Shown here piece after piece: positions 1,278 to 41,449 of a DNA stretch of 52,222 bases. The stretch spans positions 1 to 52,222 of IMG/VR virus record IMGVR_UViG_3300043409_000384. The stretch is one strand, 5' to 3'. This DNA comes from a virus. Numbering within the stretch: position 1 is the first letter of the stretch; every line of letters begins with the position of its first letter. A model generated the notes under the pieces. It did no database searches. It saw nothing but the letters and a program-made list of their open reading frames with translations, and was not told the DNA's origin. The translations under genes and the position numbers were made by a program.

Positions 1278-1510
1278 GTATTCATAAACACACTGGTCCT
1301 TATCGATCCGGTCAGTGGATCCGCGTCAGTGCCTATGCACCCGCCGCTTTCGTCATCCGATGTGTTTATGAATACCCAGTATTGCTACTGGATATGTCGG
1401 GGTTGATACCCCGACCAGGAGTCTATTGTTCCACAAATGGAACTCCATGTATCCTGTCCGCCCGTTTAGGCATGTTTAGAGTGCGCCCGGGACCTCGTTC
1501 CCCCACACTA
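1278..1510 (-). ncRNA. candidate structured non-coding RNA upstream of tRNA-Ser
   Basis: No convincing gene is seen in this stretch, but the minus strand is full of stable helices. P1 is a perfect 15-bp long-range helix 1361-1375/1278-1292, with a small GUGC/GCAC hairpin inside (1329-1340). P2 is CCAGUA-GCAA-UACUGG (1376-1391) with a GNRA tetraloop. P3 is an 8-bp GC-rich hairpin 1396-1415 with loop AUCA. P4 is GUUCCA-UUUG-UGGAAC (1428-1443), enclosed by CAGGA/UCCUG (1416-1420/1452-1456). The GNRA loop is GNRA only in the minus-strand RNA, supporting that orientation. It probably shares the promoter at 1898-1926 and runs into tRNA-Ser. I do not recognise a known family (not tmRNA-like, no intron core seen). 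Confidence 0.5.
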
Positions 1511-1684: not shown

Positions 1685-1696
1685 TGTATTCCTAAA

Positions 1697-1729
1697 AACA
1701 AAAAACCCTAGGGTTTTTAAGCCTAGGGT
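1697..1729 (-). terminator. Rho-independent terminator or attenuator
   Basis: The minus strand has an 8-bp helix ACCCTAGG/CCTAGGGT (1722-1729 with 1705-1712), a 9-nt loop, and then a U-rich run (UUUUUUGUUUUU). It lies between two small genes of the same orientation, so it may act as an attenuator that lowers expression of the downstream gene, the RNA and tRNA-Ser. Confidence 0.75.
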
Positions 1730-1755
1730 CCTGGAGTTGGTGTGTACTATGTTAG

Positions 1756-1890
1756 TTACACGATGTCCTCCTGGACCCTGGTAATCTCTGGTGTGCGATC
1801 ATTACTTAGATTCGCAAACAGGCACCAATAGGCTGTTAGGCCTAACTGGGGCATCTGTTTTGGTGAATGTAAGGATAATGTTTGCATCAT
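1756..1890 (-). CDS. small protein, 44 aa, unknown function
   Basis: ATG(1890) to TAA(1756) encodes 44 residues starting MMQTLSLHSPKQMPQLGLTA. The middle is mildly hydrophobic with W/C/F, the end is acidic. There is no Shine-Dalgarno. The first ATG lies 7 nt after a perfect sigma70 -10 box, so the mRNA would be leaderless or nearly so. This is the first gene of an early unit ending in a terminator. No family recognised; support comes from the promoter-to-terminator context. Confidence 0.5.
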   Translation of the reverse strand: MMQTLSLHSPKQMPQLGLTAYWCLFANLSNDRTPEITRVQEDIV

Positions 1891-1897
1891 AGTGTCT

Positions 1898-1926
1898 ATT
1901 ATACTTTATTTATCTTTTGTTGTCAA
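1898..1926 (-). promoter_or_regulatory. consensus sigma70 promoter
   Basis: Minus strand TTGACA (1921-1926), 17 nt, TATAAT (1898-1903): both boxes perfect. An ATAAATA (1907-1913) lies in the spacer and could act as an overlapping late promoter. Position +1 would fall at or next to the ATG at 1890. Confidence 0.85.
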
Positions 1927-1931
1927 TGACT

Positions 1932-2843
1932 TTATTTGATTTTGGATAAAATCTTTTGAACTCGTTGTCGCTCGGTAGTCAGGAATTGATGTGTATTATA
2001 CAACTGTTGTCTATCTGTGTCAACTCCTATCCGAACAAACATTTCTGGATCTTCTCCGAGTGATCGACTAAGTGCGGCACGTATGATAGCCAATGTGCGC
2101 GGATCTGCTGTACTGTTGGCCATTAACACCAACCAATTGGGACTGACTTCAAAACCACGTATGCCTTGTTCTTGTAATGTAGGAATACCCGGAAACTCAC
2201 GACTACGCCGTGTGCCTGTTACTGCCAATACTGTCACAGGTTGATCTTTTGCCACGCCCACGCCTGTGAACAATACCGTAATGTTGTTGCTGAGTATGTC
2301 TGTCAATGCGGCGGCCTCACCTCGGTAAGGGACATGAACCATTTGCACACCAGTTTTAATACCAAATAATTCCCCAGCAATGTGTGTGGCCGCACCGTTA
2401 CCACTGCTACCAAAGAACACAGGATCCCGTGTTGCCAACAACTTTGGCATGGTATTAACTGCACTCTTTGGATTTGTAATCAGGGCCAACTGTACTGTGC
2501 CCAGGGTGGCAACAGGCTCAAACTCTGCTAAATTGTACACACTATCGGCCTGTAGACTGTTTACCACCACAGCCAGGCTATGAATCAACAAAATAGTTTC
2601 AGATCCACGACTTTTTGCCACATAATTGGCACCTATGGCGCCACCTGCGCCTGCACGGTACTCTATTACATACGTATTCTGTGTATGCGTAGTTAGTGCT
2701 CGTTCTACAACGCGAGCGGCTTGATCTGCCGCACCACCAGGGGCAAATGGTACTACAATCCGAATTGTGTCTGCTTGAACAACACTACTGACCAAGATCG
2801 TAAGGCTGACTATAAAACCTTTTAAAACCTGAGTAAATGTCAT
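1932..2843 (-). CDS. Bug/TctC-family tripartite tricarboxylate transporter substrate-binding protein
   Basis: A 303-residue protein with an N-terminal signal peptide (positive start, hydrophobic VSLTILVSSVV, likely cleavage after QA near residue 24), followed by the Bug/TctC start 'IRIVVPFAPGGAADQAAR' and the conserved 'GAGGAIGANYVAKS' loop. Family members are periplasmic binding proteins for carboxylates and other small solutes working with TctA/TctB permeases; neither permease is in this window. As a phage gene it may feed a host permease or bind a compound in the periplasm. The start overlaps the preceding PP-loop gene by 59 bp, suggesting acquisition by insertion or translational coupling; no strong SD is visible. 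A second, diverged copy is at 24169-25077. Confidence 0.88.
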   Translation of the reverse strand: MTFTQVLKGFIVSLTILVSSVVQADTIRIVVPFAPGGAADQAARVVERALTTHTQNTYVIEYRAGAGGAIGANYVAKSRGSETILLIHSLAVVVNSLQADSVYNLAEFEPVATLGTVQLALITNPKSAVNTMPKLLATRDPVFFGSSGNGAATHIAGELFGIKTGVQMVHVPYRGEAAALTDILSNNITVLFTGVGVAKDQPVTVLAVTGTRRSREFPGIPTLQEQGIRGFEVSPNWLVLMANSTADPRTLAIIRAALSRSLGEDPEMFVRIGVDTDRQQLYNTHQFLTTERQRVQKILSKIK

Positions 2844-24168: not shown

Positions 24169-25077
24169 TTATTTGAGTTTAACGCCTGTGGTTAGTCGTT
24201 TCCACTTTTGCCGTTCCTCGTTGTACCAAGGGTCTAGTTCGTTGTCTTTGAGTGCCACCGGCTCGCACATGTCTGCTTTGAGACTATCCTGTACTGTTTT
24301 GGCATTTACTGCTTGTGTTAGTATGGCTCTCCACTCTTTAAACTTGGCCTCTGGTGTTGTGGTTGGAACAAGAAGTTGATGCGGAACAATTAACGATTTA
24401 AGCACAGGGTTAAATCCCAGATCAGCCAGTGGTTTATATCCGTGTGCTGTTTTTGTTCCAGTGATGCCCAACACATGTGTTTGGACTTTTCTGCTTGAGT
24501 CATTGGCCCAGGTATCTGCCTCGGACATGAATCCAACACTGAAATCCAAGTTGCCGCCAAGCATGGTAAGGAATGAGTCAGCAGTGCTTTTGAAAGGTAC
24601 TGCCTGTGCATTTGGGTATTTGTCAATAATTTGCAAACTGAACAAGTGACTTGTGGCACCAAGTCCGCTGACTCCAATGTTTAGGGGTTTATCTTTGGGT
24701 ACTTCGTTCCAGGATTTGTACTTGACTGAACTGATGGCCATGGGACTGGTACAAAATAACATGACCGGACGGAAATCTCGTACATCATAACTTTCGGTTG
24801 GGTAAAACTCTGGACGAACAAAGAACGCACTACTTGTGTGTAAAATAGTGTTTGGATTTGCTTTCACAAAGTTTGCCGCGATGGCATTGCCTGCACCAGG
24901 CTTGGTGTCAGATATAAAATTATATTTGGTTTGAATACGATTTGCTTCCTGTGCCAGAGCACGGCTGTAATTGGCCATGCTGTCAGCAGGACTAAATGCA
25001 TAATAAATGGTTACATTTTCTTGAGCCGTTGCCGCAAAAGACAAGGCTATGGTTAGTATAGCGAATAGCTTTTTCAT
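24169..25077 (-). CDS. second Bug/TctC-family periplasmic binding protein
   Basis: A 302-residue protein with a clear signal peptide (MKKLFAILTIALSFAATAQE, cleavage near AQ), then 'VTIYYAFSPADSMANYSRAL' and the family block 'DTKPGAGNAIAANFV'. I choose the ATG at 25077 because it has a good ribosome site (UUAAGGAAAA) and gives a correct signal peptide; an in-frame ATG at 25110 would add 11 residues. It has its own late promoter and a terminator, forming an independent unit. Sequence diverges from the copy at 1932-2843, so the two may bind different ligands. No permease genes are nearby. Confidence 0.85.
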   Translation of the reverse strand: MKKLFAILTIALSFAATAQENVTIYYAFSPADSMANYSRALAQEANRIQTKYNFISDTKPGAGNAIAANFVKANPNTILHTSSAFFVRPEFYPTESYDVRDFRPVMLFCTSPMAISSVKYKSWNEVPKDKPLNIGVSGLGATSHLFSLQIIDKYPNAQAVPFKSTADSFLTMLGGNLDFSVGFMSEADTWANDSSRKVQTHVLGITGTKTAHGYKPLADLGFNPVLKSLIVPHQLLVPTTTPEAKFKEWRAILTQAVNAKTVQDSLKADMCEPVALKDNELDPWYNEERQKWKRLTTGVKLK

Positions 25078-25134
25078 AATTTTCCTTAAGTGTGATTTGT
25101 GTCCGCTCACGGGACTAGTAGTTGATACTAATAC

Positions 25135-39826: not shown

Positions 39827-39834
39827 TATTTATC
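39827..39834 (-). promoter_or_regulatory. late promoter
   Basis: Minus GATAAATA, whose TAA is the stop codon of the halogenase gene (39830). It precedes the 39110-39802 gene by about 25 nt. Confidence 0.72.
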
Positions 39835-41449
39835 GGTAAATGTTATCTTTAAGAAACTGATAGTGTGTAGGCAGTGTTTTAATGTGCTCTAGTACTTCAT
39901 CGCGGTGTTTTAACCAATTATCGTAAACAGGTTGGCGTATCGCTGGACTTTCGTTGACTTTACGGTCCTGGTAGCGTATAAAATTAGCTTCAATCGGGTT
40001 ATACCCCATACCTGCCGCAATGTAAATAATACCGCCCATGTTGTTGTCAAATTGCCGTGACCTATGCAATCTAAATCCCAAATCAGTTGAGCTTTTTACA
40101 TCGTGATCTAGTCCCGCAAGATTTATAGTGCTGTTCATTGCTCTCGAATACTTGGTCGAGCCTGATACTTCTTTCCAATAAGCAGTATCATTGCGTAGGC
40201 TTAGTGCATAGTGCTGACTAATAAAGTCTTTGAATCCCATGATCTGTTCTTGGAATCCGTAGTTAAACAAATCAACATCGTAGTCGCTAACAACACCGTC
40301 GCGCATCAACAATGTACTACACAGTTTAACAATGCCTTCGTGTGTCAACATCAGTCCTGTACTCTCCAATGGTTCTATAAAGCCATTGGCTAGACCAATG
40401 CCTACTACGTTCTTAACCCAGGCATGTTCGTGTACTCCGTGGCGTATTTTGATATGGCGGAACTCGCAAGCATCTGCACGATCAGCATCAGGAAACATCA
40501 TACGATTGCTTTTCAAATGCCGACGTAACTGTGCTTCTGCTTCATCCTCTGTGGCATGTTTGCTACTGTATACATATCCTGTGCCAATACGATTCCATAA
40601 TGGAATATTCCAAACCCAACCTGCTTCAATGGCGGTACAACTTGTGTAGTTTTCCATTTCTGCTTCTTGATCAATGTAGGGAATAACTGTGGCAACTGCA
40701 CGATCGTTTAGTAGCGTATCGTTGAAACTAATAAACGGTTCGTTTAGAGTTTGATCTAGCAGTATGCTTTTAAATCCCGAACAGTCAATAAACAAGTCTG
40801 CATGAACATGTTTGCCATCTTTGGTGATAATCTTTTCAACGCTGTTATCTTCACGCTGTACTACATGCTCTACTGTGTCTGTTAGATGTGTCATGCCCGC
40901 AGGTGAACAAACATTATCACGTAGCCAATTGCCAAACAGGGCCGCATCCATGTGATAAGCCGTGTCTTCGGCAAAGTTAAATCCACGCACACGATGATCT
41001 TCATTGCGTGTCATCTTGTTTTGATCTGTCATCAATATTGCATCATGATAAAACTCTGCAAAATTTTGTGGATCAATGGCAGGATTGTCTGCACGGGCCA
41101 AGAACCATTCCATTGGCCCACGTGGCTTGTCAGTAAAATCAAATATGCCAAACGGATAATGAAACTTGTGTGGTTCTTGTTTGGGATTCTCTCTAAAGTC
41201 AACAAACTTGATACTGGTCTTGTATGTGGCATTACATGCCGCCATCCAATCTTCATCTTGTAGCCCCAGCATGACTAAAAATTGATTGATGTGTCCGATT
41301 GTGCTTTCACCTACACCTATTGTGGGAATGACATCACTTTCTACCAGGGTAAGTTTAATGTTGGGGCAAAGACGTGTAATACCCGCGGCTGTCATCCATC
41401 CCGAGCTTCCCCCGCCAACAATACAAATTGATTTTACATTATGGTGCAT
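39830..41449 (-). CDS. flavin-dependent (tryptophan-type) halogenase
   Basis: A 539-residue halogenase: FAD-binding GGGSSGW (residues 12-18), 'IGVGEST', the catalytic lysine in 'ATYKTSIKF' (K77), GWVWNIP (the GWxWxIP signature that blocks monooxygenase activity, about 277-283) and 'GLANGFIEPLESTGL' with the second catalytic glutamate. All key residues are present, so it should be active with FADH2 and chloride/bromide (iodide for the cyanophage homologue VirX1). No flavin reductase is in the window; a host one would be needed. It is coupled to a 2OG oxygenase and U32-like gene, which may form a pathway. Confidence 0.92.
   Translation of the reverse strand: MHHNVKSICIVGGGSSGWMTAAGITRLCPNIKLTLVESDVIPTIGVGESTIGHINQFLVMLGLQDEDWMAACNATYKTSIKFVDFRENPKQEPHKFHYPFGIFDFTDKPRGPMEWFLARADNPAIDPQNFAEFYHDAILMTDQNKMTRNEDHRVRGFNFAEDTAYHMDAALFGNWLRDNVCSPAGMTHLTDTVEHVVQREDNSVEKIITKDGKHVHADLFIDCSGFKSILLDQTLNEPFISFNDTLLNDRAVATVIPYIDQEAEMENYTSCTAIEAGWVWNIPLWNRIGTGYVYSSKHATEDEAEAQLRRHLKSNRMMFPDADRADACEFRHIKIRHGVHEHAWVKNVVGIGLANGFIEPLESTGLMLTHEGIVKLCSTLLMRDGVVSDYDVDLFNYGFQEQIMGFKDFISQHYALSLRNDTAYWKEVSGSTKYSRAMNSTINLAGLDHDVKSSTDLGFRLHRSRQFDNNMGGIIYIAAGMGYNPIEANFIRYQDRKVNESPAIRQPVYDNWLKHRDEVLEHIKTLPTHYQFLKDNIYR

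Follow-up and report, generated by a model that had tools for sequence, protein, structure and literature searches.

A structured noncoding RNA family of uncultured jumbo phages with three covarying strands beside a tRNA array

The window analyzed here, a whole stretch of 52,222 nucleotides from IMG/VR virus record IMGVR_UViG_3300043409_000384, carries a structured RNA of ∼230 nt, with a minimal core of ∼100 nt, next to tRNA-Ser. We observed its structure in alignments of relatives, in which three of its strands covary, and its position relative to tRNAs and promoters in the individual loci. As far as we searched, these sequences appear to form a new family of structured phage noncoding RNA. 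Its long retention in an uncultured jumbo-phage lineage implies a real role during infection. We give a probability of about one half to the reading that it is a discrete RNA which would be freed from the tRNA-array transcript and would act in trans.

Table 1. Positions of the RNA, its structural elements and its neighbours in the window, from 5′ to 3′ on the minus strand.
Feature	Position	Strand	Evidence or remark
Sigma-70 promoter TTGACA-17-TATAAT, perfect consensus	1898–1926	−	Second at 1995–2023
Short leader ORF, 44 aa, between promoter and terminator	1756–1890	−	Sequence
Intrinsic-terminator-like hairpin	1694–1728	−	Read from sequence; similar hairpins upstream in most loci
Small ORF, 54 aa, just 5′ of RNA	1520–1684	−	tblastn relatives in 5 contigs
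Structured noncoding RNA, whole	1278–1511 (5′ end ∼1511, 3′ end 1278)	−	Covariance-model match 1360–1511 plus P1 hairpin 1278–1375
PKa, pseudoknot 5′ strand AGUGUG	1504–1509	−	Pairs with Pc loop in 45/45 aligned members, letters varied
Hairpin Pb, 7-nt loop AACGAGG (loop 1493–1499)	1489–1503	−	Pairs vary GC/AU and CG/AU/UA/GC
Hairpin Pc; loop 1480–1484 GCACU is second pseudoknot strand	1468–1488	−	Pairs changed on both sides
Conserved linker RAAYGGGCGGACAG	1454–1467	−	GGGCGG kept in nearly all later members
Domain Pd with inner hairpin Pd′	1416–1456	−	Covariation, two helices
Hairpin Pe, loop UAUCAA	1396–1415	−	Covariation helix; missing in most divergent members
Strand A (AUAU), pairs with B to give longer Pf	1392–1395	−	Covariation
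Hairpin Pf, GNRA-type loop GCAA	1376–1391	−	Covariation helix
Strand B (GUAU), partner A or C	1372–1375	−	Triple covariation
P1 long hairpin, perfect 15 bp, variable inner domain 1293–1360	1278–1375	−	Covariation; inner domain swapped
Strand C (AUAC), RNA 3′ end, adjoins tRNA-Ser	1278–1281	−	Covariation
tRNA-Ser(UGA)	1188–1277	−	ARAGORN

The preliminary description of this locus had proposed a structured RNA built from an exact 15-bp helix (1278–1292/1361–1375), a GNRA-capped hairpin, a GC hairpin and a closed two-helix domain. The 15-bp helix is present in the sequence, and the minus-strand fold contains the other three as Pf, Pe (a strong hairpin) and Pd (Table 1). These helices are real, but the 5′ pseudoknot (1504–1509 with 1480–1484) and the reach of the RNA to ∼1511 had been overlooked. 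The covariance-model score for 1360–1511 is 120.9 bits (E = 5e-28), with the window sequence itself among the sequences that built the model. The minus strand folds at −92.1 kcal/mol, compared with −66.6 on average for shuffled sequences (z = −5.6; none of 200 shuffles equalled it). A good fold is predicted for the plus strand too (z = −4.8), so folding energy alone does not decide the strand. We assigned the minus strand because it has conserved GNRA-type loops, is co-oriented with the tRNAs and is the only strand on which the G-U pairs are sensible.

Relatives were collected in several ways. When the 54-aa ORF was used in tblastn, five IMG/VR contigs were found; four continue into the same RNA and the fifth stops too early. 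Motif scans returned 66 contigs. Two of them (L017 and L058) were judged chance matches, and the homologues found by motif number 62–64. The two search motifs are spaced ∼62–68 nt apart in true members. Another 52 motif matches, in bacterial genome contigs, were put down to chance, as their spacing is scattered and covariance model R2 scores none of them. Covariance model R1 found one copy in each of 37 contigs and two in one 524-kb contig. In the latter, L039 (524,565 bases), the only contig of this kind, the copies are located at 126586–126744 (−) and 416815–416973 (+), which may reflect an inverted duplication or an assembly artefact.

As an independent check, contigs were picked solely because they carry a relative of the window's terminase. 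At E < 1e-5 (E-values from our home-made covariance models are rough), R1 found the RNA in 7 of 20 such contigs. The shorter model R2 found it in 10 of 39; seven of these ten had served to build R2, and L255, L258 and L260 had not. Among the terminase-picked contigs of at least 100 kb, three of four carry the RNA. Most short ones are without it, as expected of fragments. About ten further divergent members came from terminase-picked contigs through the covariance model. A match of 21 bits in L263 is a borderline candidate.

The preliminary description recognised no family, and comparison with Rfam agrees. Rfam 15, at curated and relaxed thresholds, gave only tRNA-type matches for the window, 12 homologues and 7 divergent homologues. 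No homologue was found by blastn of the window RNA and one relative against ∼50,700 phage records, or of the consensus against 72,556 plasmids. Inside the element ARAGORN and Rfam detect nothing with the acceptor and T arms, CCA and TPsiC loop of a tRNA or tmRNA; they see only the adjacent tRNA-Ser. Open-access papers yielded no earlier description of this RNA. By-eye readings as a hammerhead, a group I core or RNase P were dropped, with no support from Rfam.

Alignment A1 holds 45 members, aligned by plain MAFFT from IMG/VR contigs that are partial and in some cases closely related. RNAalifold predicted 42 pairs on A1, 27 of them with compensatory changes. With our own structure, 97.6% of the cells in A1 are paired, and 28 of the 42 pairs tested show double (compensatory) changes. 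Compensatory cells number 245, compared with a shuffled mean of 62, and the covariation score is 0.42 compared with 0.16 in shuffles; none of 500 shuffles was as high in either measure. Shifting the partners by 1–3 columns lowered pairing to 32–47%. Because kinship among sequences can outscore shuffles, we also took trees from which the tested columns had been withheld and counted the fewest changes needed. Many pairs require 5 to 12 changes, the inner pair of Pb reaching 12, although recombination could raise these counts. The invariance of GGGCGGACAG and GGUAUCAAC in A1 is partly built in by the search pattern; in members found later without the pattern, these positions do vary.

Absence of covariation had been named beforehand as a possible refutation. 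The check came out strongly in favour of the helices, and the structured RNA is real, supported by covariation across relatives and by its fold z-score. Chance hairpins or a degenerate tRNA could appeal to the short length alone. Such an origin is refuted by covariation and is further opposed by the z of −5.6 and by a model that recovers members independently, which leaves it a negligible chance.

At the 5′ end, PKa and the Pc loop can form letter pairs such as AGUG/CACU, GCGU/GCGC, ACGU/GCGU, AAUG/CAUU and GGUG/CACC. As the search picked the best pairing for each sequence, the evidence for the pseudoknot is the varied letters at a fixed position, not mere presence. Position 1493, the seventh and last in the Pb loop, forms a pair with the Y of RAAYGGGCGG, base 1464. 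This tertiary R-Y pair is G-C in 32 sequences and A-U in 29, with no exception among 61. Conservation of GGGCGG in the linker was judged on members retrieved without that motif as query. Divergent members selected by terminase keep the pseudoknot, Pb with an AACGAG-type loop, Pc, GGGCGG and Pd; several of them lack Pe and Pf. The near-invariant ACGGGCGG is complementary to 16S rRNA positions 1399–1406. A chance match in 16S is expected for ∼2% of 8-mers, and we treat this complementarity as only a lead.

The compact pseudoknotted fold, the near-invariant unpaired AACGAG and GGGCGG and the R-Y tertiary pair would suit a new ribozyme, self-cleaving or helping to process the adjacent tRNA. We consider this quite improbable. 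The RNA matches no Rfam ribozyme family and has no invariant cleavage site, and some of its motif invariance stems from the search pattern.

The inner loop of P1 can be replaced: the cores of L044 and L063 are identical while their loops are unrelated, and loop modules are shared on different cores by L029 and L054 and by L051 and L063. This suggests that P1 loops are exchanged between cores like cassettes. In L033 (10165–10416, −), the P1 loop contains a T-arm-like hairpin, GGUAGGUUCGAAUCCUAC, which recalls the tRNAs in the GOLLD variable region.

Segment B has two alternative partners: A, at the base of the GNRA hairpin, and C, the final bases before the tRNA. All three strands covary, with at least 5–6 independent changes, and this relation is the most unusual feature of the family. 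Of the 45 members, 25 have G/C/G at the key column triple and 20 have A/U/A, never mixed, and the tree requires at least 6 changes of this triple. The relation is kept with other letters in L016 (AUAUGGU/ACCAUAU/AUAUGGU) and L237 (UGCAG/CUGUA/UACAG). With the tRNA left out of the calculation, the predicted energy difference between A:B and B:C ranges from −1.3 to +2.8 kcal/mol across the 45 members. L239, L240 and L242 are without Pf and hence without the A:B alternative. In the tRNA-Arg group, the last two bases of P1 are also the first two bases of the tRNA. B:C would be incomplete after cleavage in this group because C includes these two bases, and the overlap suggests that, of the two states, A:B is the one compatible with a mature tRNA.

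In the window, the 3′ arm of P1 stops at base −1 of tRNA-Ser(UGA). The ARAGORN call confirms the contact that had been described, which would let RNase P separate the two products. Across 62 loci, the 3′ arm ends between −2 and +7 nt from the start of a tRNA in ∼27, a count that includes two tRNAs detected by Rfam models only. In another 16 loci the tRNA starts at +58 to +66, with a short element in the gap. One type of gap element (∼55–65 nt) has a 9-bp stem stacked on an arm with a 7-nt loop, UUACUACAG...CUGUAGUGACA. This conserved tRNA-like minihelix follows P1 in L018, L023, L026, L027, L043, L047, L051, L052, L054 and L057. A second type, AGUGCG...CGCACU, occurs in L020, L040, L044, L056, L060, L063, L064, L070 and L071. 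Both appear to resemble minimal RNase P substrates.

A few relatives have no tRNA immediately after the RNA. In L238 and L255 a promoter takes the place of the tRNA 3′ of P1, and in L013 a promoter lies between the RNA and the first tRNA; RNase P therefore cannot produce every 3′ end. The directly downstream tRNA can be Ser, Met, Gln, Ala, Arg, Trp or Tyr (in L236, tRNA-Tyr begins right after P1). Since the adjoining tRNA is not fixed in identity, a role specific to tRNA-Ser is not supported. The earlier suggestion that the RNA controls tRNA-Ser maturation as such likewise finds no support, given this variety and the relatives in which a minihelix replaces the tRNA or the tRNA is absent.

On the 5′ side, consensus sigma-70 promoters precede the RNA in every locus with enough flank. 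The leader of the window (1694–2023, −) and those of relatives have one or two perfect sigma-70 promoters, a leader ORF of 43–57 aa and an intrinsic terminator. In the window, AGGGUCC..GGAG is complementary to CUCC..GGACCCU and could capture the 5′ half of the terminator. This arrangement of the tRNA-array leader looks attenuator-like. The small ORF adjoins the 5′ side of the RNA in most loci, and the RNA could be its 3′ untranslated or regulatory element, riboswitch-like or protein-binding. This is unlikely, as the RNA is kept where the ORF is missing (L022-type loci, L061, L238 and L240) and is placed after the ORF rather than before it.

In most loci no tRNA is found in an upstream flank of up to 3 kb, and the RNA typically heads the array. 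This position also fits a cis-acting role. As a cis leader of the tRNA array, the RNA would bind RNA polymerase or a factor for read-through, or the choice between A:B and B:C would gate processing of the first tRNA. HK022 put RNA and rrn antitermination let RNA polymerase run through a long untranslated transcript, and the present RNA is likewise a structured RNA early in a long, mainly untranslated transcript. It differs from put in that no put-like sequence was recognised, its fold is far larger and a new promoter may follow it. A cis leader would agree with the promoter, short ORF and terminator-like hairpin that precede the RNA, and with the overlap of the switch and the 5′ leader of the first tRNA. 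However, the RNA lies 3′ of the terminator-like hairpin and so is unable to act on it, and tRNAs occur upstream of the RNA in eight loci (L009, L011, L033, L034, L036, L045, L061 and L069). L013, L238 and L255 carry a fresh promoter right after the RNA, and a base-exact 3′ boundary against the tRNA would be unnecessary. We regard a cis leader as possible, short of likely, and as the main rival reading.

For a freed RNA acting in trans, the reading we prefer, we infer transcription, RNase P cleavage, the order of the two states and the trans action as follows. Transcription by host RNA polymerase would start at the sigma-70 promoters, and the RNA would usually be the first structured element in the tRNA-array transcript. 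The pseudoknotted core (PK-Pb-Pc-linker-Pd) would fold, usually followed by Pe, Pf and P1. During synthesis A:B would lengthen Pf and leave strand C single-stranded. RNase P would then be able to cut at base +1 of the tRNA, because A:B keeps C unpaired. After cleavage B would move to C and the 3′ end would be sealed into P1. The product would be a stable free RNA, which would act in trans through its conserved core. This reading is favoured by the covariation, the pseudoknot, the independent retrieval of divergent members, the usual single copy, the closeness of P1 to tRNA starts, the similar energies of the two states and the promoters on the 5′ side, with T4 RNAC and RNAD as a precedent. The promoters that follow the RNA in L013, L238 and L255, the overlap in the tRNA-Arg group and the members without Pf count against it. 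A more specific version is a strand-exchange clock, in which B pairs with A and then with C, timing both the release of the RNA and the maturation of the tRNA array, and the freed RNA acts in trans on host gene expression. We propose this version only tentatively.

The carriers belong to a jumbo-phage lineage whose contigs reach 524 kb and usually carry a single copy of the RNA. Five RNA-bearing contigs of at least ∼250 kb were tested, and every one has terminase family phrog_36964, that of the window. By terminase, the nearest cultured relatives are PA5oct (54%), Atu_ph07 (52%) and Phosso (51%), and the covariance models gave no convincing match in the nearest cultured terminase relatives. 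Two weak matches in Atu_ph07 (15.1 and 13.6 bits) were rejected, the better one lying within an annotated CDS. The RNA thus belongs to a subclade that has no cultured representative in the collection, or has been lost or become unrecognisable elsewhere. A virion-packaged or packaging RNA like phi29 pRNA would match the usual single copy per contig in a terminase-defined lineage. We find it very unlikely: terminase and structural genes are not nearby in the window, the terminase is T4-type, and the terminase relatives PA5oct, Atu_ph07 and T4 have no match.

Other genes in the window were also noted. At 1932–2843 (−) it encodes a TctC/Bug-type tripartite tricarboxylate receptor (Pfam PF03401, E = 3.5e-30), which hints at a betaproteobacterial host. 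By eye, the ORF at 24169–25110 resembles a receptor of the same type, and that at 39830–41449 (−) resembles a flavin-dependent tryptophan halogenase.

The stable RNAs of phage tRNA clusters (T4 RNA C and RNA D, GOLLD and ROOL) lack a settled function, and the present family is a compact further case. Strong covariation and a traceable jumbo-phage lineage make it easy to follow, and the alignment and models would let annotation pipelines detect it. The three-strand relation offers a concrete, low-cost test of whether such RNAs and the adjoining tRNAs mature jointly.

RNAC and RNAD of T4 are phage RNAs of the T4 tRNA region with unknown function (PMC9697503, PMC3014915). The window has a T4-type terminase and UvsX, and its RNA sits by tRNAs as in a T4-type tRNA cluster. 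RNA C and RNA D (species 1 and species 2 RNA) are likewise small structured RNAs at such a cluster, of 139 and 119 nt, and RNA C has a tRNA-like T-arm sequence near its own 3′ end. They are located at the end of the array, whereas the present RNA is at its head. With filters off, R1 gave a best overlap with rnaC of 5.0 bits (E = 1) over the T4 tRNA region, and neither covariance model found anything significant in the whole T4 genome. GOLLD, an ornate phage RNA, lies close to tRNA islands, and its variable region sometimes contains a tRNA (PMC12286853). The tRNA-like T-arm in the P1 loop of L033 is similar in this respect; the present RNA has ∼230 nt compared with >800 nt for GOLLD, and is unlike it in sequence and fold. 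ROOL, a pseudoknotted RNA of unknown function from phages and prophages, likewise lies near tRNA islands, but the present RNA is much smaller. Neither the GOLLD models at relaxed thresholds, run on the homologues screened with Rfam, nor the ROOL models, run on the window and screened homologues, gave a match.

In MALAT1/mascRNA, the 3′ end of the RNA is processed by RNase P at a tRNA-like element. The setting here is different, a bacterial phage with a tRNA array, and cleavage is proposed from position; by analogy, the 3′ end of the present RNA would likewise arise by RNase P at a tRNA or tRNA-like structure.
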